54,143 bases of DNA from positions 1 to 54,143 of the IMG/VR virus record IMGVR_UViG_3300006750_000012; one strand, 5' to 3'. Of this stretch, positions 9,897 to 46,841 are shown one piece after another. Under the pieces are notes generated by a model. It was not told the origin of the DNA. It searched no databases and worked only from the letters and a program-made list of their open reading frames with translations. Source of the DNA: a virus. Both the position numbers and the translations under genes were made by a program. The stretch's first letter is position 1, and each line of letters begins with the position of its first letter.

Positions 9897-9971
9897 GGGG
9901 ACGTAGTTAAGAGGTTTAACATCTGGCTTTTAACCAGTCGACGGCGGGTTCAATTCCCCCCGCCCCTACCA
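9897..9971 (+). tRNA. tRNA-Lys (TTT), imperfect
   Basis: Anticodon loop CTTTTAA closed by CTGG/CCAG gives anticodon TTT. T loop TTCAATT, encoded CCA end. Acceptor (GGGGACG/CGCCCCT) contains one A-C mismatch and the T stem one C-C mismatch, so it may be poorly functional. First tRNA of the island. Confidence 0.65.
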
Positions 9972-9996
9972 CTTTATAGCATACGAAAAATTTTTC

Positions 9997-10025
9997 TTGA
10001 CAAGTATGGTCATTTTTGATATAAT
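9997..10025 (+). promoter_or_regulatory. Promoter of the permuted tmRNA
   Basis: TTGACA (9997-10002), 17-base spacer, TATAAT (10020-10025) followed by ATATAAAATGGGAAAA; start near 10032. It lies directly upstream of the tmRNA acceptor segment. Confidence 0.88.
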
Positions 10026-10049
10026 ATATAAAATGGGAAAAAACCTACA

Positions 10050-10130
10050 ATGATTGAATTACAAAAATGGCTTAAGGAAACCGATGCAGAATATGATAAA
10101 TTCTGTGAAAATTCCTTACCGATTGGATGA
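10050..10130 (+). CDS. Tiny ORF in tmRNA leader, 26 aa
   Basis: MIELQKWLKETDAEYDKFCE and six more residues, ending one base before the tmRNA acceptor segment. No good ribosome binding site. It could be a real peptide gene, or the region may be part of the tmRNA precursor. Low confidence. Confidence 0.3.
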   Translation: MIELQKWLKETDAEYDKFCENSLPIG

Positions 10131-10182
10131 AGCAATAACGCCTTGTGCGGACGCGGATAGCATTATTCCGCCTTCTCCACCA
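10131..10182 (+). ncRNA. ssrA: tmRNA acceptor piece (permuted ssrA, 3' part)
   Basis: CGGACGCGG, T-arm stem GCGGA/TCCGC, then CTTCTCC-A-CCA ending at 10182. The segment CGGACGCGG...CCGCC..CTCCACCA follows the 3' end of standard gammaproteobacterial tmRNA closely. CTTCTCC (10172-10178) pairs with GGGGAAG (10229-10235) of the coding piece, forming the acceptor stem across a 46-base linker. The T loop (TAGCATTAT) is not canonical. In this gene the 3' acceptor end comes before the 5' end, the definition of a circularly permuted tmRNA. Confidence 0.85.
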
Positions 10183-10228
10183 AATAAATATCTAAGAATT
10201 AATCGAGAAATACGCAGTCCAAATTAAA
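10183..10228 (+). other. Intervening segment of permuted tmRNA precursor
   Basis: AT-rich 46-base linker joining the CCA of the acceptor piece to the GGGG of the coding piece. In known two-piece tmRNAs this segment is cut out during maturation. Confidence 0.7.
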
Positions 10229-10560
10229 GGGGAAGAACAGATTCGACGGATAAGTAACGGGTTGTGGACAATCACGTACGAAAGTACAAAACATTAAACG
10301 CAAATGATGAAACATTCGCACTTGCTGCCTAAGGGTTAGCTGAGCTTGGCGGCTCGCTTGTAAACAGAAGTAGCCGCCTCCATTAAACAAATGTTTCAAT
10401 GTCTCAGGCTACCGGATTAGGGTTGACCACCCTCCTGCTTAGTCAAAGTATAGATTTAGTCACCTATATTGGGAGCGCACCGTGTAAAACTTGACGGAAA
10501 GGCGAACCTAGCTCTGGAACATTTCTTTAATGGATGTATAGTTTCTTATTTAATCTATAA
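10229..10560 (+). ncRNA. ssrA: tmRNA coding piece with tag ANDETFALAA (permuted ssrA, 5' part)
   Basis: Begins GGGGAAGAACAGATTCGACGG, the classic tmRNA 5' domain. ATAAG (10240s) can pair with CTTGT of the acceptor piece as helix 2. A GTAC-GAAA-GTAC hairpin lies in the pseudoknot-1 region. The resume codon GCA at 10300 opens GCA AAT GAT GAA ACA TTC GCA CTT GCT GCC TAA (10300-10332), tag ANDETFALAA, close to the host tag ANDENYALAA. Downstream, GGCGGCT/AGCCGCC (10348-10354/10372-10378) and AGGGT/ACCCT stems look like the pseudoknot region. No CCA follows downstream. The 3' limit is uncertain. tmRNA rescues stalled ribosomes and tags the unfinished protein for proteolysis. Confidence 0.9.
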
Positions 10561-10623
10561 AAATAAGTGTCAAGTTCTATGTGCTAAAGTAAAGATAATA
10601 GGAATTACACAAAGGAGCATGAA

Positions 10624-10788
10624 ATGACTGATAGTAGATGGTCGCGTCTGGAACTTCAGCGGGAGCGGGAGTCTAGGTGTGGTGGGCGTCGCAGCTTGCA
10701 AGATTGCGGTCATTGGGAGTGTCTGTGTGGTACTCTGAATGAAGAAGATCGGAGAACTTGTCAGCATTGTGGTGAGTCTGGCGACTAA
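10624..10788 (+). CDS. Small zinc-ribbon protein, 54 aa
   Basis: Start at 10624 after AAAGGAG. Contains two Cys pairs, CLC and CQHC, in the C-terminal half (CLCGTLNEEDRRTCQHCGES), a zinc-ribbon pattern, and further Cys upstream. GC content is higher than around it. A nucleic-acid or protein-binding role is likely but not specified. Confidence 0.55.
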   Translation: MTDSRWSRLELQRERESRCGGRRSLQDCGHWECLCGTLNEEDRRTCQHCGESGD

Positions 10789-10819
10789 TAGAATTTGAAA
10801 GGAGTAGGGTGCCAAATAT

Positions 10820-10904
10820 GGATAGGCTGGGCATTGGCGAGCCCACGTGGCTGTAAACCACACGCCTTAGAGCTGTAATGGTTCAACTCCATTCCTATCC
10901 ACCA
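10820..10904 (+). tRNA. tRNA-Tyr (GTA)
   Basis: Perfect acceptor stem GGATAGG/CCTATCC, anticodon loop CTGTAAA (GTA), long variable arm as expected for bacterial Tyr, T arm AATGG-TTCAACT-CCATT, encoded CCA. Confidence 0.92.
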
Positions 10905-10982
10905 ATTTAACAGTAGGCGTAATGGCGCACTAAGCGGACTCCAAACCCGTTATGCTGGGCTCGATACCTAGGTAGGGTGCCA
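10905..10982 (+). tRNA. tRNA-Trp (CCA)
   Basis: Starts right after the CCA of tRNA-Tyr. Anticodon loop CTCCAAA (CCA), T arm CTGGG-CTCGATA-CCTAG, encoded CCA at 10980-10982. The acceptor stem is rich in G-U pairs (ATTTAAC/GTAGGGT) with one mismatch. Confidence 0.75.
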
Positions 10983-11009
10983 ATTTACAGTAGTAAACAG
11001 GAAATTATT

Positions 11010-11198
11010 TTGATTAGTGTAAGAGAAAGACTACCTAAACCCAATCAACCATGTAAAGTATATGTTCTGGATTATTTAAAAAAGAACTTTGAAGGAAAGA
11101 AGTTTAAGTTTATAACATATAGTGATGGTGGATATTTTTGGGATGATAGTGAAACTTGTTTACAAGACTCAGAAGTAACACATTGGAATCCTTTTTAA
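11010..11198 (+). CDS. DUF551-like small protein
   Basis: About 62 aa from a TTG start at 11010, chosen because AGGAAA of the AAACAGGAAA motif lies 5 bases upstream. The N-terminus ISVRERLPKPNQPCKVYV matches the W-I-S-V-x-x-R-L-P-x-x-x-x-x-V-L-V opening of DUF551, a short domain common in phages. Function unknown. Confidence 0.7.
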   Translation: MISVRERLPKPNQPCKVYVLDYLKKNFEGKKFKFITYSDGGYFWDDSETCLQDSEVTHWNPF

Positions 11199-11209
11199 GA
11201 AGATAATAA

Positions 11210-11860
11210 GTGTTAAACGTATTAAACCTATATGCAGGAGTTGGTGGCAACCGCAAACTCTGGACCGACGTAGACGTCACAGCAATAGAAAGCGATCCAA
11301 AGATAGCAAGTGTTTATCAGAAACTTTTTCCAGATGACACTGTATTTATTGAAGATGCGCATCAGTTCTTATTAGAAACTCATGATCTGGTAGACTTCGT
11401 TTGGTCAAGTCCCCCGTGCCAATCGCACTCTCGTATGATGAAGGCTACTAGACATGATCTAAGACGTTATCCTGATATGGCACTATACGAAGAGATATTA
11501 TTTCTTCAGAACTTTTTCAAAGGCGGATGGGTAGTAGAAAACGTAAAACCCTATTACGAACCTTTGATAAAACCTACAGCAATTATAGGTAGACATTATT
11601 TCTGGAGTAACTTCCCAATTACAGCAGACGATGTTAAGCGACCTCCTGGATTTATTAATAAGTCTACAGTAGCAGGTAAACTAGAATTGATGGATTGGCT
11701 TGATATTCATTACGAAGAGAAGTTATATTACAAGGGGAACCATTGTCCAGCCCAAGTGCTGCGCAACTGCGTTCATCCCTTAATAGGAAAACAGATTTTA
11801 GAGAATTATAGGGTTGGGATGCTGTGTGGCGCAGGTTCTCGCTGTGACCGAGTTAACTGA
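11210..11860 (+). CDS. DNA (cytosine-5) methyltransferase
   Basis: 216 aa, GTG start. C5-methyltransferase motifs in order: motif I NLYAGVGGN (residues 6-14), motif IV SSPPCQSHS (about 65-73, catalytic Cys in PCQ), motif VI VVENV (about 108-112) and a motif IX/X-like end (PAQVLRNCVHPLIGKQIL). Compact compared with cellular enzymes; likely a solitary phage methylase that shields its DNA from host restriction. The last 17 codons are the first part of the tRNA-His gene, so the natural C-terminus may have been replaced by a tRNA insertion. Confidence 0.85.
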   Translation: MLNVLNLYAGVGGNRKLWTDVDVTAIESDPKIASVYQKLFPDDTVFIEDAHQFLLETHDLVDFVWSSPPCQSHSRMMKATRHDLRRYPDMALYEEILFLQNFFKGGWVVENVKPYYEPLIKPTAIIGRHYFWSNFPITADDVKRPPGFINKSTVAGKLELMDWLDIHYEEKLYYKGNHCPAQVLRNCVHPLIGKQILENYRVGMLCGAGSRCDRVN

Positions 11861-11887
11861 TGGGTTCGAATCCCTCCCTCCCCACCA
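11811..11887 (+). tRNA. tRNA-His (GTG), overlaps methylase 3' end
   Basis: Anticodon loop CTGTGAC with stem CTCG/CGAG gives GTG; T loop TTCGAAT; encoded CCA. The acceptor has two mismatches and the T stem only three pairs, so it may be decaying. The methylase stop codon (11858-11860) lies inside the tRNA. Confidence 0.65.
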
Positions 11888-11902
11888 AATTAGAGGTACA
11901 CT

Positions 11903-12073
11903 ATGAGTGTAGAAGATAATACTCAACAAGCTAAGCGATTTATTAAGATTGTTGGCCCAATTACATTAATTGCTGTTATAGTCTTTTTAGTCGTAGCAGC
12001 AGGCAGAGAATATGCTGGTTGCGAATGGCCTTGGGAAAATGTAGATGGTACTGATACGTACCTCGTGGACTAA
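11903..12073 (+). CDS. Single-span membrane protein, 56 aa
   Basis: Polar N-terminus, membrane helix at residues 16-36 (GPITLIAVIVFLVVAAG), acidic C-terminus. AGAGGTA upstream of the ATG. Function unknown. Confidence 0.55.
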   Translation: MSVEDNTQQAKRFIKIVGPITLIAVIVFLVVAAGREYAGCEWPWENVDGTDTYLVD

Positions 12074-12157
12074 CGCGATATAATTGATTAGTAGGTCGTG
12101 ACCTAAACCCTGATACCCGAGGGTCTGAATGGCAATATCGGGTTACTAAATTCTGAC
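12074..12157. other. Structured intergenic segment
   Basis: Contains AGGTC-GT-GACCT (about 12092-12103) and ACCCGA/TCGGGT enclosing about 20 bases. No gene. May be a remnant of a tRNA or a small RNA. Confidence 0.35.
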
Positions 12158-12186
12158 TTGAAATAGTGAGTAGAACTTGCTATAAT
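12158..12186 (+). promoter_or_regulatory. Promoter of the tRNA-Pro unit
   Basis: TTGAAA (12158-12163), 17-base spacer, TATAAT (12181-12186); start near 12193, only 14 bases before tRNA-Pro. Confidence 0.85.
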
Positions 12187-12206
12187 ATATAAAATGGAAA
12201 ATCAAA

Positions 12207-12282
12207 CAGAGCATAGCTGAGCTTGGTATAGCATGGCGTTTGGGGCGCTAAGACGAGGGTTCGAATCCTTCTGTTCTGACCA
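12207..12282 (+). tRNA. tRNA-Pro (TGG)
   Basis: Acceptor CAGAGCA/TGTTCTG (7 pairs with one G-U), anticodon loop TTTGGGG (TGG), T arm GAGGG-TTCGAAT-CCTTC, encoded CCA. Confidence 0.9.
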
Positions 12283-12336
12283 ATTAAGGAGGTAACGACA
12301 TAATGAGTAAATTGTAATTAAATACAGGAGAAAATT

Positions 12337-12606
12337 ATGAGCGATACTTATCGACATAAAGTATTGGGCAAGTATAAAAGAATCCGTGATGAGGACTTTT
12401 GTGCAGGTTGGGAGTATTTAAGCACCAACCACCCGGGCTTTATGTATACCTGGTGGAATTCTACACCTTCGTGGTGGAATAATGAATTTCATACCAGACC
12501 AGCGAGAACGCAGACTCGCAATACTCTGCGCAAGATCAATCTAGATAACTATGAGGATGACTGGGATTTTCCCAACTATAAAAAGCCTCATATTTATTAC
12601 TGGTAA
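12337..12606 (+). CDS. Hypothetical Trp/Tyr-rich protein, 89 aa
   Basis: Soluble, strikingly aromatic (FMYTWWNSTPSWWNNEF, PHIYYW at the end). ACAGGAGAAAATT upstream of the ATG. No family recognised. Embedded in the tRNA island. Confidence 0.6.
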   Translation: MSDTYRHKVLGKYKRIRDEDFCAGWEYLSTNHPGFMYTWWNSTPSWWNNEFHTRPARTQTRNTLRKINLDNYEDDWDFPNYKKPHIYYW

Positions 12607-12709
12607 GACTATAGCAGGTAGTTTCCCTGTGCTAAGCAAACCGTAAGCATTTGAGAGCGTGAACAATGTGATCCTACAGTGGGACGATCTTTAAACTCAA
12701 CCACACAAT

Positions 12710-12786
12710 TTTATATCCCGAGCGACAGGACGCAGGTGAGGCTACGAACCACGCCCTTGTAGGTTCGATTCCCTAGGACTCCGCCA
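12710..12786 (+). tRNA. tRNA-Arg-like (ACG), aberrant
   Basis: Anticodon loop CTACGAA (ACG) with a stem TGAGG/CCACG that has an A-A mismatch; T arm TAGG/CCTA with an 8-base loop; CCA at 12784-12786. The 3' acceptor strand GGACTCC has no complementary 5' strand at the normal place. Probably degenerate, or its 5' part lies elsewhere in the structured DNA upstream (12607-12712). Confidence 0.4.
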
Positions 12787-12791
12787 AATAT

Positions 12792-12868
12792 GGATCGGTC
12801 GTCTAATGGTTCAGGACGCGTTGGCTTTCAACCTCCGAATCAGGGTTCGAACCCCTGTCGATTCACCA
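12792..12868 (+). tRNA. tRNA-Glu (TTC)
   Basis: Acceptor GGATCGG/TCGATTC, anticodon loop CTTTCAA (TTC), T arm CAGGG-TTCGAAC-CCCTG, encoded CCA. Confidence 0.92.
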
Positions 12869-12923
12869 AATATAGGTAACAGTGAATGATGGGTCGCACC
12901 TATCGTACTGGGGTCAGTTGAAG

Positions 12924-12950
12924 CGGGATGAGACCTCCCCGCCTTTTATT
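12924..12950 (+). terminator. Possible terminator within tRNA island
   Basis: GCGGG, loop, CCCCGCC followed by TTTTATTT. The preceding DNA (12872-12920) has tRNA-like stretches but I cannot fold a full tRNA. Confidence 0.4.
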
Positions 12951-12953
12951 TAA

Positions 12954-13030
12954 TGTGGTGAAGCTTAAGTGGCATAAGCAACTGGCTGATAACCGGTAGA
13001 CAGGTGGTTCAAGTCCACTCACCACGACCA
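12954..13030 (+). tRNA. tRNA-Ile (GAT)
   Basis: Acceptor TGTGGTG/CACCACG, anticodon loop CTGATAA (GAT) with stem ACTGG/CCGGT, T arm GGTGG-TTCAAGT-CCACT, encoded CCA. Confidence 0.9.
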
Positions 13031-13036
13031 AACAAT

Positions 13037-13112
13037 GCTAGTGTGCGCATCGGGGTATGCGAACCGCCTGTCTAGCGGATGTAGGAGGGTTCGAGTCCCT
13101 TCACTAGCGCCA
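13037..13112 (+). tRNA. tRNA-Asp (GTC)
   Basis: Perfect acceptor GCTAGTG/CACTAGC, anticodon loop CTGTCTA (GTC) with stem CCGC/GCGG, T arm GAGGG-TTCGAGT-CCCTT, encoded CCA. Confidence 0.93.
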
Positions 13113-13129
13113 AATTTAAAAGGATACTT

Positions 13130-13723
13130 ATGAAAGTAGATATGTCCGTTCCTTTTGATAGATCATTTAATAGAAATTTTGATTTATCTGAGAGAACCAT
13201 ATTACAAGCTACAATGTCAGAAACAGCTTCTATATTTGAAAATATACCTTATAGCTGGGATAATGCTGATCAAGGTACAGGATTTGGAGATATTGGGGGA
13301 GATATATGGTCTTGCTGGTCATTCCTAAATGTAACAATACCTCAAGATGTAACAATAACAAAGGCCACAATGGTTTGGAAGCCTAGCACAGATCCTGACA
13401 CAATTAGTGCTGATCTTCTCTTTGATTGTGAAAAAGATGCTACTCCGGTAGATGTCACAAATACTACTCCTCTTAATAGACCCTACCAGGATTCTTTTGT
13501 GTGGACAACCGCTAACGATACTATTACAGGACTGACATTAACAGGAGATGAGGAATATACTTATAATATAGTAATAGATCCAGCGATTTTTCAAGAATGT
13601 ATAGATTTAGGCGGTTGGAATAGAAAATTTAACCTGAGAGGTAGAGCTCCAGATACCCCTTCTAATACGTGGGTAGGACAGAGAGATATTGCATCTTTGA
13701 TTGTGGAGTATTACGAAAATTAA
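13130..13723 (+). CDS. Beta-rich protein with DNRLRE/CBM-like domain
   Basis: 197 aa, no signal peptide. The core (WSFLNVTIPQDVTITKATMVW) resembles the C-terminal domain of the PhoD-like tail protein at 44811-46841 (FDPISTIPQGTTIKQAWLQI); both look like the DNRLRE-type beta-sandwich found in adhesins and carbohydrate-active proteins. This gene would be the isolated domain. It sits among tRNAs, far from the tail genes. A role in binding cell surface or virion decoration is an inference. Confidence 0.65.
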   Translation: MKVDMSVPFDRSFNRNFDLSERTILQATMSETASIFENIPYSWDNADQGTGFGDIGGDIWSCWSFLNVTIPQDVTITKATMVWKPSTDPDTISADLLFDCEKDATPVDVTNTTPLNRPYQDSFVWTTANDTITGLTLTGDEEYTYNIVIDPAIFQECIDLGGWNRKFNLRGRAPDTPSNTWVGQRDIASLIVEYYEN

Positions 13724-13724
13724 A

Positions 13725-13785
13725 GCCCCATTGGTGGAATTGGCAGACACGCTGGGTTTAGTTCCCAGTTCCCAGCCCCCGTAGA
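13725..13785 (+). pseudogene. Truncated tRNA-Leu (TAG), T arm and 3' acceptor missing
   Basis: GCCCCATTGGTGGAATTGGCAG is a typical 5' half of tRNA-Leu (acceptor, D arm), with anticodon loop TTTAGTT (TAG) and stem CTGGG/CCCAG. Afterwards no T arm and no strand complementary to GCCCCAT are found; tRNA-Gly begins at 13791. Looks like a deletion between two tRNA genes. Confidence 0.7.
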
Positions 13786-13790
13786 ACGGA

Positions 13791-13866
13791 GCAGTGATGG
13801 TGTTCAATGGTAGCATTACAGTCTTCCAAACTGACGGTATGGGTTCGAGTCCCATTCACTGTTCCA
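13791..13866 (+). tRNA. tRNA-Gly (TCC)
   Basis: Acceptor GCAGTGA/TCACTGT, anticodon loop CTTCCAA (TCC), T arm ATGGG-TTCGAGT-CCCAT, encoded CCA. Confidence 0.9.
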
Positions 13867-14017: not shown

Positions 14018-14545
14018 ATGTCTTTTAAATATTTAGTAGCTGCCAGTTTGCTAGCACTTAGTATGAGTGCTAATGCGGATATTTATATTGGTGGTGAAGT
14101 AAATAGTACGGCAGTTGACTCTAATTCTCTAGAAGATATTGTCAACGACTTCTCTGATCGTTCAGCTGGATATGGTGCAATTATTGGATATAAGTTTCCA
14201 ATGCCATTCGCAGTTCAGGCCAAGTACATAGCTCCCGAAGAGCTTGATGATCAAGGCCTTTCAATTGATGCAGATGGGTGGTTAGTAAGTGGACTAGGAT
14301 TCATTCCTTTAGGGAATGCTTGGTCTATTTACGGAGAAGCAGGATACTTTGATTTCTCTGGAGATATTGAGATTGGTAGTGAAGAAGCTTCACAGTCTTT
14401 ATCTGGAGAGAGTGGAGTATTGTTCGGAGCAGGTGTTAACTGGAACATCACCGGAGGACTAAACACTCGACTTGGCGCTACTCTATACGATGTAGAAGGT
14501 GCCAGTGTTAATCAGTTCAACCTAGGCGTACTGTACGAGTTTTAA
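14018..14545 (+). CDS. Outer-membrane beta-barrel protein
   Basis: 175 aa. Signal peptide MSFKYLVAASLLALSMSANA, cleavage before DIYIGGE. Alternating-hydrophobicity strands (YGAIIGYKF, WSIYGEAGYFDF, GVLFGAGVNW) and a terminal phenylalanine (LGVLYEF), the usual BAM signal, fit an 8-stranded OmpA/OmpW-like barrel. Third outer-membrane protein of this phage. ATGAGGAC upstream supports the start. May alter surface properties or block receptors (inference). Confidence 0.8.
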   Translation: MSFKYLVAASLLALSMSANADIYIGGEVNSTAVDSNSLEDIVNDFSDRSAGYGAIIGYKFPMPFAVQAKYIAPEELDDQGLSIDADGWLVSGLGFIPLGNAWSIYGEAGYFDFSGDIEIGSEEASQSLSGESGVLFGAGVNWNITGGLNTRLGATLYDVEGASVNQFNLGVLYEF

Positions 14546-16556: not shown

Positions 16557-16576
16557 TAGCAATCGAAAAATTTATC

Positions 16577-16605
16577 TTGACATTTAGCTTACATTTTGCT
16601 ATAAT
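16577..16605 (+). promoter_or_regulatory. Rightward promoter
   Basis: TTGACA (16577-16582), 17-base spacer, TATAAT (16600-16605) then ATATATACTGGAAAAAC. Start near 16612; leads into a 120-base structured leader. Confidence 0.88.
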
Positions 16606-22081: not shown

Positions 22082-22868
22082 ATATCCAAATGCTAAAAAT
22101 TTCAGATATGGAAATAAGCACCTTAAGTTTCTAAAGTTAATGACAGTACAGGCGGAGTTCCCTTATAGTGAAACTACTAAAAGTATAAATGATACTAATT
22201 TTTATTTTAAGTGGCAAAGGCACGAAGGAATTATAGATTTTTGCGATTTAGATGATTTATACCTAGACTCAGATCTTCCCATATTTAAAGCACACTATAG
22301 TAAGTATATTGATTATCCAAACAATATATTTCCATTGGGCCCAATGTGTGGGGGCAGAGTACCTACTTCTAACAATATTCATTATTTATTCAGTCATGAA
22401 TATCAGTATAATCCACAACGAGGTTTCAGTAATAAACAGATTCCTTGGGGTCATGCTATAAGACGTAGAAACTATGTAAAAAGCCTATTTACAAAAACTA
22501 ATTACAGTGTAGATCAGAAGATAGAAGATAGTCCGTTAAAGTTTTGGCGCGCTAATCAGAATGTACTTGGAGCAATTTGTGTACCTGGTCGAGTTAACAA
22601 TATGTTAGATCGTGGACAACTAGAACTAATGCTTTTAGGTGTATGTACGATATCACCAGAATTACCAGAGTTACTATTAGGGAAGGAACTACTTCCTGGA
22701 GTACACTATATTAAGTGTAAAGATGACTATAGTGATTTACTAGATATTATGGAGGAATTAACTCCAGATAAGGCGAAAGAAATAGGTAATTGTGCTAAAA
22801 CTCTTAAAATAAACTATCATCCTATATATTTTATGCAGTGGATAACAAATAATGTGGTTAAAAGATAA
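22074..22868 (+). CDS. Glycosyltransferase-like protein (GT-B C-terminal pattern)
   Basis: 264 aa. The stretch CVPGRVNNMLDRGQLELMLL, then VCTISPELPELL and VHYIKCKDDYSDLLDIMEEL, resembles the C-terminal half of GT-B transferases, where the sugar nucleotide is bound and the gene loses Rossmann repeats at the N-terminus. Exact family uncertain. Belongs to the same cassette. Confidence 0.55.
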   Translation: MFEYPNAKNFRYGNKHLKFLKLMTVQAEFPYSETTKSINDTNFYFKWQRHEGIIDFCDLDDLYLDSDLPIFKAHYSKYIDYPNNIFPLGPMCGGRVPTSNNIHYLFSHEYQYNPQRGFSNKQIPWGHAIRRRNYVKSLFTKTNYSVDQKIEDSPLKFWRANQNVLGAICVPGRVNNMLDRGQLELMLLGVCTISPELPELLLGKELLPGVHYIKCKDDYSDLLDIMEELTPDKAKEIGNCAKTLKINYHPIYFMQWITNNVVKR

Positions 22869-23496
22869 GGTAATATTTTTAGATATTCCAAAATGTGGAA
22901 CTACTTCTATGCATAAAGCAGCAGGATTTCCAAAACACTTACCACACCCCATGAACTCGGTGCCTAATAAAGTAGGACATACAAAACATAGTAGACATAT
23001 TCCAAATAGTATAGATTACAGTTATATCTTTACTGTAGTAAGAAACCCTTATACTAGAAGTATATCCTTATGGAATCATGTTAATAAATTAAAAAATTCA
23101 CTGTTAAATGGCAAGATCAAACGTACCGCTAATCAGTACCTAACAGAAGAATATTTTAATAGTTTCGAACATTTTTTAGAAGTATGTAAAGAAATAAATG
23201 AAAATGTAGATTCGGTGAATGAAACCGAAACATTTTTATTAGTACACTGTTCATGTTATACTTGGACACGTTCATTACCTAGAGTAGATAAAGTGATCAG
23301 ATTAGAAGAGTTTGAAAAAGAAAGATATTTATTGCCATTACGTATAGACGGGCTACCAGTAATTAATATTGGTAAAGAACATTTTATCTTATCAAAAGAT
23401 CAACGAATTAAAATAGAACAAGCGTTTTTTGAGGATTTTCATTTATATGAATATAATATTTCCAACCCCGCGCCACCCTCAAGAAATTTAGAATAA
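22852..23496 (+). CDS. Sulfotransferase family protein
   Basis: 214 aa. 5'-phosphosulfate loop: IFLDIPKCGTTSMHKAAGFP (residues 8-27, I-P-K-x-G-T-T-S). 3'-phosphate site: FTVVRNPYTRSISLWNHV (about 60-77, V-R-N-P-x-x-R). Both are standard for carbohydrate sulfotransferases using PAPS. In a phage with glycosyltransferases next door, sulfation of a surface polysaccharide or of modified DNA sugar is possible (inference). Confidence 0.8.
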   Translation: MWLKDKVIFLDIPKCGTTSMHKAAGFPKHLPHPMNSVPNKVGHTKHSRHIPNSIDYSYIFTVVRNPYTRSISLWNHVNKLKNSLLNGKIKRTANQYLTEEYFNSFEHFLEVCKEINENVDSVNETETFLLVHCSCYTWTRSLPRVDKVIRLEEFEKERYLLPLRIDGLPVINIGKEHFILSKDQRIKIEQAFFEDFHLYEYNISNPAPPSRNLE

Positions 23497-24142: not shown

Positions 24143-24290
24143 GAACTTCATTAATATGTTAAATAATGAAGATATAAATGAATTAGAGCGCCTACTTACT
24201 TGGCGAAAATGGAAAGGAAAGCTAAGTGCACCCAGATATATTGATGATTCCGAGCGAGAAACTCCGACAGAAAGCTCTCCCAGTAACTAA
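24111..24290 (+). CDS. Hypothetical protein, 59 aa
   Basis: Overlaps the previous gene and the start of the deformylase in other frames. Helical charged N-terminal half (MNIEKQRQLKNFINMLNNED), Ser/Pro-rich end. Moderate support. Confidence 0.4.
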   Translation: MMNIEKQRQLKNFINMLNNEDINELERLLTWRKWKGKLSAPRYIDDSERETPTESSPSN

Positions 24291-24756
24291 ATTTGACACA
24301 GATATGCTATTTACATTATCTAATAGTATGTTAAAGTGTTTGGATTACTATAAAGCTATAGGCCTTGCCTGCACGCAGCTAGGAATACCTATGCGTATGA
24401 TAGTATTCAGAGCGGAAGCACATAGGCCATTTGTAATGGTAAACCCCACGATCGAAGGCGGGTATAGTAGTAATCTGCAAAATTTTAAGGAAGGGTGTTT
24501 GTCTGTACCAGGATATTGGGATATGATTCCCAGACATCCTACTATTCAAGTAAAATATAATGACATAACTGGAAAAGACTTAATAGATGTATTTTACGGG
24601 TATGAAGCAAGTATTATACAACATGAAATAGAACATTTAGATGGCATATTATTTATAGATCATCTAAGTAGTATTAAAAAGGATCGAGCTGGAAAAAAGG
24701 TGGAACATTGGAAAAGAAGAAACAATTTAAAAAGAAAATTAAATCGCAACGTATAA
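24226..24756 (+). CDS. def: Peptide deformylase
   Basis: 176 aa, GTG start after AAAGGAAAG. All three family motifs: GLACTQLGIP (motif 1), EGCLSVPG (motif 2 with metal Cys) and QHEIEHLDG (motif 3, HExxH). Removes the formyl group from new proteins. Phage deformylases are known in marine phages and help high-level translation, consistent with the tRNA and tmRNA genes. Confidence 0.93.
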   Translation: MHPDILMIPSEKLRQKALPVTKFDTDMLFTLSNSMLKCLDYYKAIGLACTQLGIPMRMIVFRAEAHRPFVMVNPTIEGGYSSNLQNFKEGCLSVPGYWDMIPRHPTIQVKYNDITGKDLIDVFYGYEASIIQHEIEHLDGILFIDHLSSIKKDRAGKKVEHWKRRNNLKRKLNRNV

Positions 24757-26020: not shown

Positions 26021-26395
26021 ATGGCAAAAAACAAACTAAAATCAAGTGATTCCAAGAAAAACTATTGGAAGAGATATTCAACTAAATACGAAGATCATCG
26101 TATTAAAAGGTTAGAACGACACATTGCAAAACATCCTGAAGATGCACAAGCAATCGAAAGACTAGATAATCCAAGATTTCCTTACAGACGAAATGTTAAA
26201 GGTGTGTTTAAAACACCAAGAATAAATAAGGAAAAAGCGGCTAATAGAGAAGATATGAAATTGAGAGAATTGAAGTCTCGTCCTCGTTCTCCTTTTCCCG
26301 CATGGAAACAAATTCTTCGTGAGTTACGTGACTCTATGAGACCTAAAGTGAGGCATAAGAAACGTCGTGGCACAAAACTACATAAAACTAGCTAA
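26021..26395 (+). CDS. Very basic hypothetical protein, 124 aa
   Basis: Lys/Arg-rich throughout (ends RPKVRHKKRRGTKLHKTS). Probably nucleic-acid binding by charge. Overlaps the ligase gene by 29 bases. Confidence 0.55.
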   Translation: MAKNKLKSSDSKKNYWKRYSTKYEDHRIKRLERHIAKHPEDAQAIERLDNPRFPYRRNVKGVFKTPRINKEKAANREDMKLRELKSRPRSPFPAWKQILRELRDSMRPKVRHKKRRGTKLHKTS

Positions 26396-27326
26396 AGAAG
26401 CATATTACGAAGGTAAACCCTTTATTTCAGATTCCCAATATGATGCTCTAGTAGACTTATATGGAGAAGATTCTGTAGGTAGTCAAGTAGGAGCAGATAT
26501 TCCTCACTATCGTAAGATGTACAGTTTAGATAAGGTGTATGAGGGAGAATATAACGGTGATACTCCTGTGGACAATCCAGATGACTGGATCGTTACACAT
26601 AAGTTAGATGGAGCAGCTATTTCTATCCTATATATAGGCAGAGTAATGGCGCAAGTATTAACTAGAGGAGACGGAACCAGAGGAATAGATATTTCTGATT
26701 TATTCCGACATACTGATTTAATTCCTCAAGTATTACCCCCTAACTGTCCAGGTATTGTTCAAATTAATGCCGAGGTAGCTACAGTCAAAACTACCCCTAA
26801 TGCTAGAAATTATGCTTCAGGGGCTTTAGGGCTTAAAAGTAAGGATGAGTTTCTAAAAAGAGACTTAAAAGTATTTGCATATAATCAATATCCACATGCT
26901 CCTACGCACAAAGAAGATTTATATGGGTTATATCATCACGGTTTCACGTATGTTCCATTAGCTTTAGATATTGCAACTGAAGAATTTGAGTATCCAACTG
27001 ATGGATATGTATGGAGGATTAATGATAATCAATTATACAAAACTATGGGATTTACCAGTCATCACCCACGAGGTGCAATTGCTGTTAAAGAACGTTCTGA
27101 GGGCGTTAAAACGACCCTTCTCGACGTCAAGTGGCAAACAGGAAAATCCGGTAAAGTCACGCCGGTTGCTATTCTCAGTCCGGTTAATATTAACGACGCC
27201 ATCGTCTCAAGAGCCACGTTAAATAACGTAGGATTTATTGAGGCCCTCGGACTCGAAATAGGCGACGCGGTAATGGTAGAGCGTGCTGGAGATATTATCC
27301 CTAGGATTATTAAGAAAGCCGAATAA
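26367..27326 (+). CDS. ligA: NAD-dependent DNA ligase, adenylation and OB part (subunit A)
   Basis: 319 aa, GTG start. N-terminal Ia-like domain (YEGKPFISDSQYDALVDLY), active site THKLDGAAIS (nucleotidyl-Lys, about residue 73), VLTRGDGTRG, and the OB fold VTPVAILSPVNI-ATLNN-LEIGDAVMVERAGDIIPRI. Stops before the zinc finger; the rest is a separate gene at 27398. Two-piece ligases are known in T5-type phages. An AAACAGGAAA copy lies inside. Confidence 0.9.
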   Translation: MAQNYIKLAKEAYYEGKPFISDSQYDALVDLYGEDSVGSQVGADIPHYRKMYSLDKVYEGEYNGDTPVDNPDDWIVTHKLDGAAISILYIGRVMAQVLTRGDGTRGIDISDLFRHTDLIPQVLPPNCPGIVQINAEVATVKTTPNARNYASGALGLKSKDEFLKRDLKVFAYNQYPHAPTHKEDLYGLYHHGFTYVPLALDIATEEFEYPTDGYVWRINDNQLYKTMGFTSHHPRGAIAVKERSEGVKTTLLDVKWQTGKSGKVTPVAILSPVNINDAIVSRATLNNVGFIEALGLEIGDAVMVERAGDIIPRIIKKAE

Positions 27327-27397: not shown

Positions 27398-28141
27398 ATG
27401 AAAATAGAAATTCCAACAACTTGCCCTTCTTGCGGCGCAGCATTAGAACTTGTCAATGCACAGCTCTTTTGCCGGAATAAATCTTGTAAAGCACAATCTT
27501 TTAAGAAGATTGAGACCTTTGCAAAAAATATGAAAATAAAAGGCTTAGGTCCAAGGACTATAGAAAAATTAGAACTTGAAACCATTCCTGATATTTACAT
27601 ATTAACAGAATCTTGTTTGGTGGAAAGACTAGGCGAAAAAATAGGTAAAAAATTACATGGTGAAATTAATAAGTCTAAAATATGTGAATTTTCAACCTTT
27701 TTAAGCGCACTCAGTATTCCGCTGATAGGTAAAACAGCAAGTAAAAAAATTGCTGAAGCAGGTTTTAATTCTATAATAGATTTATGGGATTATAGTCATC
27801 ATGATATACTTGGTCCAGTAGCTAGTTCAAACCTAGCGGATTGGGTAAATGACTTTGGTCCAGAATATTATGATCTACCATTAGAGTTTATCAAACCTAA
27901 ACCTGCAACAACTAAACGATTAGGAAAAGTATGTATAACTGGGAAGTTAAACGATTTCCGAAATCGAACTGAAGCATCCAAATTTCTAGAAGAGATAGGA
28001 TATACAGTAACAACGACAGTAAGTAAACAGACTGACTTTCTAGTTTGCGAAGATGGTTCTTCATCTAGTAAAACGAAGAAAGCGAAACAGTTAAATATAC
28101 AAATAGTATTAATTAAACAACTAGAGGAAATTGCTAAATGA
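27398..28141 (+). CDS. ligA: NAD-dependent DNA ligase, zinc finger-HhH-BRCT part (subunit B)
   Basis: 247 aa. TTCPSCG and CRNKSCKAQ form the Cys4 zinc finger (residues 8-33), MKIKGLGPRTIEKL the first HhH, then further HhH units (LIGKTASKKIAEAGF) and a C-terminal BRCT domain (KVCITGKLNDF-ASKFLEEIGY). The zinc finger requires the start at 27398. It completes the adenylation part at 26367; the two must work as a complex. Confidence 0.88.
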   Translation: MKIEIPTTCPSCGAALELVNAQLFCRNKSCKAQSFKKIETFAKNMKIKGLGPRTIEKLELETIPDIYILTESCLVERLGEKIGKKLHGEINKSKICEFSTFLSALSIPLIGKTASKKIAEAGFNSIIDLWDYSHHDILGPVASSNLADWVNDFGPEYYDLPLEFIKPKPATTKRLGKVCITGKLNDFRNRTEASKFLEEIGYTVTTTVSKQTDFLVCEDGSSSSKTKKAKQLNIQIVLIKQLEEIAK

Positions 28142-44343: not shown

Positions 44344-44818
44344 GTTTTATCTCCTTAATTTCTATATGTCCTAAATCATGAAAAGTTTGATCTAATAAGT
44401 CAAAATCTCCGTCCCAATCAATTCCTACTCGTAGCTCTATATTATTCTCAAAAGCTATACCTTCAAGAATTCCTATTAACCTAGCATACGCTTTACAAAT
44501 AAATGCTTTAGATTCAATTAGACTACAATTACGTTTTTTAGCAGTATCTCTGATTTGATTAGGGTGTCCAGTTAATACTCCATATGGCCTTATATAAGGA
44601 GCCACATCTACGGCTTGGCTAGGTTCTTTATTATGTTTGCTACTCGGCCATTTAAGCCTAGATAATCCACTATTAAATTTATTATCTTGCTCTTGTTTAT
44701 CTCTATGCCCTGCTATAATAGAAAAATCTGTATATTTAATAGCTATTTTACAAAGCCGCTGTAAATTTCTATTACAACTAGCAAGTCTTGTTTTTGATTT
44801 TGTGTTAAATTTATACAT
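44315..44818 (-). CDS. Endolysin, M15 (VanY/L-Ala-D-Glu) peptidase
   Basis: 167 aa. FSIIAGHRDKQEQDNKFNSG, then SSKHNKEPSQAVDVAPY (S-x-H-x6-D zinc ligands) and FHDLGHIEI (third ligand His) match M15C endolysins such as T5 Lys. No signal peptide, so it needs the holin. Overlaps the PhoD-like gene by 8 bases. Confidence 0.88.
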   Translation of the reverse strand: MYKFNTKSKTRLASCNRNLQRLCKIAIKYTDFSIIAGHRDKQEQDNKFNSGLSRLKWPSSKHNKEPSQAVDVAPYIRPYGVLTGHPNQIRDTAKKRNCSLIESKAFICKAYARLIGILEGIAFENNIELRVGIDWDGDFDLLDQTFHDLGHIEIKEIKRGWRSFWKS

Positions 44819-46841
44819 CTGCTTTAATTACCAATCTAGGAGTGTAGTAAGGCATATGATCCGCGCTTCGAGTAGCACCTAAACTAACGTATAGGTCTGG
44901 ATCTTCTGAAAAGAATGCCATATTTAAATACTCAGTACCAGAGTTTCTATAGTTAGAATCATCAATGTACGACTGTAATAATGCTGTAACATCAATAAGT
45001 CTCTGATTTGGGGCAAATAGCCCCCAATTAAGATCTCCTGCACTGTCATAAGGATTATCTGCATCAAAATCTAATTCTATAGTGGAAGCATGTGTTTGCC
45101 ATGCATTAATATTACTTGGTAAATTACTTTGACTAAAAGGTGTAGTAGTTCTGCCCCCTCCATAGGAAGCTATTTTAAGTTCGGCAGTTCCCTGTTCAGT
45201 TAAACTAGTCCACTCTAATTGAATTTGTAGCCACGCTTGTTTAATTGTTGTACCTTGAGGAATAGTACTTATAGGATCAAAACTAAATCCAGCTATATAG
45301 CCACCATTATTAGATCCTGTACATAACGCTAAATGATTGGTGTCGTCCCAGGTACTGGCAGTTTCATCTCCAGACCAACTTCCATCCTCTGGACGACTAG
45401 TATACACTACATCTCTTAATAAATTAGTAGTTGCAGAATCCCAACGTTTTGTACCGTGCAGCATTTCGCCTTCAAAAACTACCTCATCTTCAGTATTTAT
45501 AAACTTGATCTCTGCTTTATCTGGCCAAAAGTCTATCTGACCAACTATATGCTGTTGTGTTGTATAATCTTCAGCAAAATGAACGTGTTGAGAAGCAGGC
45601 TCAGTACCTCTCCATGCATGAGTAACATCTGAACTAACAGCTCCTGCGCACATACCAACATATGCATGATCATAACCATTAGCCGCATTATATCCTAATA
45701 CATTATCATTGCCCATAATAAAGGCTTGGTGACCATCTCCACCAATAAAAATAACATTATTAACATCATTTGTAGCTATCCAATCCATAATACGATTTAA
45801 TTGAGTATTATATCTGGCCATTCCGTCACCACCGCCTGGTAAAAACGAGAAAGGAGGAGCTGGGTGATCTATCCAAGGCTTACTACACCCTATTAGAAAG
45901 TAATCTGGAGGTCCCATTTCAATACTATTAAGAATAGTATCATAAAACCATTGTTCTTGGGTGGGACTCAATATATTCTTATTAACATCATCAACATCAT
46001 CAATAGGACTTTTTTCTCCTATTTGATCAAGCATAATAAAATGTACATTTCCTACTCGTGCCTCAAAGTACATAACAGGATAATTTTGAACCGTAGCATT
46101 CGCCTCACCTCTACTAACCAAAGGAATGTATGGTGTAGTATTAGCATAAGGAGCATCTGGATGATACGCTTTAAATACATTATTAGCATCAATATAAACT
46201 TGATTTACTTCATATTGAGATTCCCAAAAAGAACCGGGAGGAAGGATATAATTATCATACATAGATTCCCCAGTATGATCATAATTATCTGGAGGAAACT
46301 CATGGTCATCTCTAGTCCAGTACGAAGGAATATTATGAGTAAGATCATCCATACCAGGTCTTTGAGAAAAGTTATAATGATGTGTTTGATATTCCGCAAG
46401 AGTAGGATGGCTTCCTCCTACTGTTATATTATTTAAATTAGAATCAGTAAGGTCTTGATTAAAAGCAAGAACACCTGTAGTATATGGGTTATCTCCTAAC
46501 CAAATAAAAGCAGAAGGGTTATGCTTTTTAATAAGAGGGCCAAACTCCATATCAATATAAGATTGAGCACAATGACCAAACATAATACGCACAGGTGTAC
46601 CATCAAGAGGCATACATTTACCTGCTCCAGTAATTGTTCCGTCTAAAGTAAATGGCCATGTTCTTCCTTTCTCGGGCAAAACATTCGTAATTGCCCATCC
46701 AGTATAATCCAAACCATCGGTTTGAATATAATAATCTGTACCATTTACTGACCATGTAATTGTTTCATCTTGATCAGATTTAACCCAAATCGAAAATTGA
46801 TCTTCAGTTGCATGACCAAGTCTCCATAGTTGTACTGCCAT
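44811..46841 (-). CDS. PhoD-like phosphatase with DNRLRE-type domain, tail-associated
   Basis: 676 aa. PhoD-type metal site: FGHCAQSYIDMEFGPL, WLGDNPY, YWTRDDHEFPPDNYDHTG, FIMLDQIGEKS and IFIGGDGHQAFI. Residues about 500-676 form a DNRLRE/CBM-like beta domain (STIPQGTTIKQAWLQIQLEW). No signal peptide, and it lies between fibre genes and the endolysin, so it is probably a virion or fibre enzyme acting on a phosphate-bearing surface glycan or lipid (inference) rather than phosphate scavenging. Confidence 0.78.
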   Translation of the reverse strand: MAVQLWRLGHATEDQFSIWVKSDQDETITWSVNGTDYYIQTDGLDYTGWAITNVLPEKGRTWPFTLDGTITGAGKCMPLDGTPVRIMFGHCAQSYIDMEFGPLIKKHNPSAFIWLGDNPYTTGVLAFNQDLTDSNLNNITVGGSHPTLAEYQTHHYNFSQRPGMDDLTHNIPSYWTRDDHEFPPDNYDHTGESMYDNYILPPGSFWESQYEVNQVYIDANNVFKAYHPDAPYANTTPYIPLVSRGEANATVQNYPVMYFEARVGNVHFIMLDQIGEKSPIDDVDDVNKNILSPTQEQWFYDTILNSIEMGPPDYFLIGCSKPWIDHPAPPFSFLPGGGDGMARYNTQLNRIMDWIATNDVNNVIFIGGDGHQAFIMGNDNVLGYNAANGYDHAYVGMCAGAVSSDVTHAWRGTEPASQHVHFAEDYTTQQHIVGQIDFWPDKAEIKFINTEDEVVFEGEMLHGTKRWDSATTNLLRDVVYTSRPEDGSWSGDETASTWDDTNHLALCTGSNNGGYIAGFSFDPISTIPQGTTIKQAWLQIQLEWTSLTEQGTAELKIASYGGGRTTTPFSQSNLPSNINAWQTHASTIELDFDADNPYDSAGDLNWGLFAPNQRLIDVTALLQSYIDDSNYRNSGTEYLNMAFFSEDPDLYVSLGATRSADHMPYYTPRLVIKADV

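Follow-up and report, generated by a model that had tools for sequence, protein, structure and literature searches.

The 54,143-base IMG/VR virus record IMGVR_UViG_3300006750_000012, which in its full length is the window of this study, carries on its forward strand, adjoining phage genes, the gene of a two-piece, circularly permuted transfer-messenger RNA (tmRNA). Here the order is inverted: the tRNA half comes first and has its CCA end at 10182, and the mRNA half follows downstream, starting with GGGGAAG at 10229. In an Rfam covariance model search of the whole window, the permuted family tmRNA_permuted (RF04321; gathering score 47 bits) matches positions 10121-10332 with a score of 75.5 bits (E = 9.4e-13); the match spans the entire model (positions 1-213 of 213) and ends at the stop codon of the tag. 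The betaproteobacterial model beta_tmRNA (RF01850) aligns at its full length to 10091-10406 with 53.1 bits; since this is under its cut-off of 84 bits, the gene is filed solely in the general permuted family. A first-pass annotation, made from the letters alone, had proposed a circularly permuted tmRNA on a phage genome and a covariance model search as the way to check it; that search has now been run, and the full-length match to the permuted model, together with a T5-like DNA polymerase in the same window, bears the proposal out. The two-piece gene is real and had been correctly read. The interval given at the time, 10131-10560, ends too far downstream, as nothing assigns 10414-10560 to this gene.

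The acceptor piece ends with the acceptor 3' strand CTTCTCC (10172-10178), A73 (A10179) and an encoded CCA (10180-10182), together CTTCTCCACCA. The coding piece begins with the acceptor 5' strand GGGGAAG (10229-10235) and continues to 10249 with the D-loop AACAGATTCGACGG, in which the RF04321 alignment places A18 at 10239 and G19 at 10240, the D-loop signature GATTCGACGG occupying 10240-10249. All 7 base pairs of the acceptor stem form, across a 46-nt linker (10183-10228) that is predicted to be removed from the precursor; every coordinate of this arrangement in the first-pass annotation holds, as do the signature of the coding piece and the tag on re-reading. In viral relatives the linker measures 8-68 nt, within length bounds imposed by the search patterns. 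The patterns used to scan IMG/VR prescribed TCCACCA, GGGGNNG and the signature of the D-loop, and left at least one side free at acceptor pairs 5, 6 and 7. These three pairs form in 156 of 156 distinct viral loci, with many pair types, the A-T/A-T version of the window being seen twice among the relatives. Because pairing at the free positions is found in every locus, we take the junction-spanning stem to be real on this comparative evidence, and chance to be no explanation for it. The pair G3.U70 and A73 are the identity elements for alanine, and both are present, as G10231.T10176 and A10179.

The T-arm and the D-loop form the elbow of the molecule. The segment 10149-10171 comprises GGAC and the T-arm, whose stem GCGGAT/TTCCGC, as read from the sequence and from the relatives, has a U.U mismatch beside the loop. 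This loop (10159-10165) reads AGCAUUA, which departs from the canonical UUCRANN (a typical, not strictly defining, T-loop) and recurs in the viral loci L017 and L019. Across 147 distinct sites of permuted tmRNAs (taken from loci L001 and L014-L363), a D-loop with G18G19 is always paired with a UUC T-loop (95 viral sites) and a D-loop with A18G19 always with an NGC T-loop (38 viral sites and 14 from the genome collection, the latter nearly all SAR11); with zero exceptions, these represent two exclusive elbow types. T-loops were absent from the search patterns, so that the association was not built in, while some patterns did fix the D-loop; the 147 sites share descent and do not count as 147 independent events. 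The elbow of the window (A18G19 at 10239-10240 with AGCAUUA) follows the rule, and since its two loops changed together accordingly, this sequence evidence speaks for an RNA whose folding is still being selected for. We found no paper stating this covariation, in a literature search that was incomplete, and claim no priority for it.

That the odd T-loop might be an invention of the phage was considered and rejected, as T-loops of the NGC class are widespread among Pseudomonadota, SAR11 included. By our reading of the matches listed, about 115 of the 398 genomes sampled from this phylum have an NGC T-arm adjoining CTCCACCA, apparently within a tmRNA; about 9 further genomes of the 398 gave chance matches only. 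The permuted tmRNAs of SAR11, which RF04321 also finds, have the T-loop GGCAGUA, and the genomes retrieved by scanning for an A18 D-loop were almost exclusively Pelagibacteraceae. ARAGORN, run on the window, did not report the tmRNA gene, and the T-arm is a possible cause; since host tmRNAs that have NGC T-loops are detected by the program, the longer, U.U-flanked arm is the likelier obstacle. A miss of this kind means that part of the phage tmRNAs may be under-counted.

The tag reading frame runs from the GCA resume codon to the TAA stop (10300-10332) and encodes ANDETFALAA, with a hydrophobic ALAA-type end; the RF04321 model ends at the same stop. The first-pass annotation held this tag to be unlike those of hosts and saw in it a sign that trans-translation may be redirected or reprogrammed by the phage. 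The identical tag is present in tmRNAs of 9 of the 398 sampled Pseudomonadota genomes, all 9 confirmed by ARAGORN, and recurs in a few further permuted tmRNAs of viruses; a phage-specific tag is thus rejected, and the argument for reprogramming falls, because the tag is one that ordinary bacteria share. Downstream of the tag a hairpin, GGCGGCT/AGCCGCC (10348-10378), carries the ACAGAA loop motif conserved in the relatives, at the place where RF01850 sets its 3' stem. Of 227 permuted tmRNAs that were extracted, 149 have ACAGAA after the tag, mostly within a helix of at least 5 bp; since mismatched partners often reach 5 pairs too, more weight falls on the motif than on the length of the helix. 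As this conserved hairpin follows the tag, the coding piece extends to at least about 10380. A possible closing helix around the 3' hairpins (10334-10344 with 10403-10413) comes from single-sequence folding only, with no confirmation by relatives. Just downstream of the tmRNA, an Rfam search found no family and a terminator scan no forward-strand terminator-like site; some 200 bases (10414-10620) devoid of long open reading frames (ORFs) and Rfam matches separate the tmRNA from a small cysteine-rich ORF starting at 10624.

Within the body of the molecule, the long helix P2 is assigned by the RF04321 alignment and by duplexfold, with moderate support for its 3' strand in the acceptor piece (10121-10148: GATTG 10121-10125, GCAAT 10132-10136, CTTGT 10142-10146); the 5' strand lies in the coding piece (10250-10273: ATAAG 10250-10254, GTTGT 10261-10265, CAATC 10269-10273). 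Folding places a hairpin, GTAC-GAAA-GTAC (10276-10287), where pseudoknot 1 would be, near the hairpin that RF01850 retains as a remnant of it.

Upstream of the tmRNA, at 9997-10025 on the forward strand, is, in line with the consensus promoter that had been proposed, a perfect sigma-70 promoter (TTGACA-17-TATAAT, 12 of 12 consensus matches) with an extended -10 (TG). The window has 5 such perfect promoters, compared to 0.08 expected in shuffles, and 3 of the 5 share the same A/T-rich upstream element, GAAAAATTT(T/A)TCTTGACA, which with -17-TATAAT makes up a unit repeated at about 2957-2998, 9984-10025 and 16566-16605. Because the flanking element recurs at two further sites, the tmRNA promoter is, by its sequence, a unit that the phage itself repeats and not one special to the tmRNA. 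Between promoter and tmRNA lies a 26-codon ORF (MIELQKWLKETDAEYDKFCENSLPIG, 10050-10130), with no relative found in phages, which ends inside the P2 strand and so shares ten bases with the acceptor piece.

Eight tRNAs (9897-13866) surround the tmRNA gene. The DNA polymerase of the window is 42% identical to that of phage T5 and 43% to that of Enterobacter phage KKP_3711, over 99% of its length, and phage families of a DnaB-type helicase, an SbcC-like protein, a helicase and a ribonucleotide reductase (RNR) are also represented. A NAD-dependent DNA ligase is apparently split into two ORFs, at 26367-27326 (by Pfam) and 27398-28141 (by reading). Polymerase, helicases, SbcC-like protein and split ligase agree in fitting a T5-like replication module. 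The class II RNR is closest to those of aquatic phages (57-61%), which fits an aquatic origin. The virus, a bacterial one of marine type, is a distant relative of T5. The INPHARED phages and plasmids gave no DNA match to the window, which thus has no close named relative, and the permuted tmRNA is absent from the six named relatives checked (T5, KKP_3711, Slocum, pVp-1 and two phages with a similar RNR). With the DNA polymerase as bait, IMG/VR returned the same phage again and distant relatives, with no close divergent homologues in which covariation within the lineage could be followed. Other genes recognized by Pfam are a peptide deformylase (24226-24756), a sulfotransferase-like gene (22852-23496), an outer-membrane beta-barrel (14018-14545) and a PhoD-like phosphatase (44811-46841).

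The expectation that a permuted tmRNA would be unusual in a phage does not stand. A two-piece tmRNA has been published in phage Melnitz, and 53 of 133 unique phage tmRNAs are of the two-piece kind, 50 of them obtained from samples of marine or aquatic origin (PMC9004378). Other phage tmRNAs, that of mycobacteriophage DS6A included, have been known for longer (PMC4131195). The tmRNA database contains 79 sequences from phages (PMC11915505), and our IMG/VR pattern scans place permuted tmRNAs on well over 100 viral contigs. Like the ssrA gene of Melnitz (PMC9004378) and the other viral permuted tmRNAs of IMG/VR, the gene described here belongs to a lytic marine phage genome and has an upstream promoter; it differs in that the Rfam search of the window found no riboswitch and that the replication module is T5-like. 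It adds a two-piece tmRNA, of a kind already known, to a phage with such a module and leaves the general picture unchanged, while offering one more lineage in which to test what ribosome-rescue RNA does for lytic phages that carry it.

From the gene, its architecture, the identity elements for alanyl-tRNA synthetase, the tag, the promoter match and the phage context, all of which can be read at the locus, we infer how transcription, processing, charging, tagging and a benefit to the phage might follow from one another. The promoter at 9997-10025 would give a single precursor, from which host tRNA-processing enzymes would excise the 46-nt linker, with RNase P cutting at 10228/10229 and 3' trimming proceeding to the encoded CCA at 10182; the two resulting RNAs would stay joined through the acceptor stem and P2. 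Host alanyl-tRNA synthetase would charge the molecule, and host SmpB would deliver it to ribosomes that have stalled on broken messages, perhaps a frequent event while the mRNA of the host is being degraded by a lytic phage. Addition of the tag AANDETFALAA would free the ribosome and send the product to host ClpXP-type proteases. Together, the tmRNA and the surrounding eight tRNAs may act as translation support for the infected cell.

Most probably, the phage encodes here a functional permuted tmRNA (ssrA) that works within host trans-translation. The full-length RF04321 match, the acceptor stem with its pairing in all 156 relatives, the alanylation signals, the degron-like bacterial tag, the joint change of T-loop and D-loop, the ACAGAA hairpin, the perfect promoter, the tRNA cluster, the intact copy at 100% identity on a second contig (IMGVR_UViG_3300025072_000007) and the Melnitz parallel all favour it. 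Several observations weigh on the other side. The T-stem has its U.U next to the loop; the pairing energy of P2 (duplexfold) is matched by 35 of 211 foreign partners, and the energy of the two-piece fold is weakly below that of shuffles (z = -1.7), so that these energy tests are not discriminating and are excluded as proof. As the two contigs are nearly one genome, they offer no independent divergence that would show selection in the lineage. Neither contig, both being incomplete, has smpB, and the tmRNA would thus depend on the host.

Alternatively, a tmRNA-like RNA might bind SmpB or stalled ribosomes and block host trans-translation, as has been proposed for the piece carried by mycobacteriophage DS6A, which encodes little beyond a tRNA-like domain; such a molecule inhibits tmRNA (PMC4131195; PMC11915505). 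The window resembles DS6A in that a phage bears a relative of tmRNA, and its T-arm is slightly irregular; unlike DS6A, which has no tag, it is permuted and has the full tag and coding domain. A decoy needs none of the intact resume codon, tag and stop, 3' ACAGAA hairpin and complete alanylation signals found here, and with tag and 3' domain intact we regard this explanation as quite unlikely. Still more unlikely, in our estimate, is that the tag or the abundance of the RNA sends host proteins to degradation or spares those of the phage: it is one of the possibilities raised by the authors of the Melnitz study (PMC9004378), but the tag has the usual ALAA end and as a whole equals tags carried by ordinary bacteria, and the sequence bears no sign of altered targeting. 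A host-derived tmRNA drifting into a pseudogene would account for the 6-position T-stem with its U.U mismatch and for a covariance score that is moderate beside the 76-138 bits of other viral loci; with every functional element intact, the D-loop/T-loop covariation obeyed and the promoter perfect, it is to our mind the least probable of these explanations.

The elbow suggests one further role for a working tmRNA. The NGC T-loop lacks U55, and mostly U54, and without U55 this type cannot carry pseudouridine-55. The phage might thus keep an elbow of the A18-G55 type (its T-loop lacking U54/U55), which needs neither T54 nor pseudouridine-55, along with a beta/gamma-type tag, and such a tmRNA could act when host tRNA modification or the host tmRNA fails during infection. 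We hold this idea to be improbable; if true, the phage would have a modification-independent ribosome-rescue RNA, and no tmRNA would have been described earlier from a T5-like replication lineage.

Compared with the known families, the gene shares with RF04321, which merges the alpha, beta and cyano two-piece tmRNAs (PMC11915505), the order of acceptor piece, linker and coding piece, the T-arm, the acceptor stem, the D-loop UUCGAC and the tag, whereas it scores under most viral members found and differs in its T-loop AGCAUUA and U.U-flanked T-stem. With RF01850 it shares the ANDExFALAA-type tag and an overall length and 3' stem that align across the model; its A18/NGC elbow differs from the G18/UUC consensus of that model, and its score falls under the cut-off. 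The Rfam consensus coding half, compared by BLAST with phages, gave weak chance-level matches only. Among the genomes with permuted tmRNAs, one metagenome-assembled genome (G024, that of L272, Rickettsiales bacterium MED657) contains three matches, and at least one of these, with a 33-nt linker and with elbow and linker length as in the viral loci L018, L020 and L023, seems to be a phage contig that ended up in the bin.
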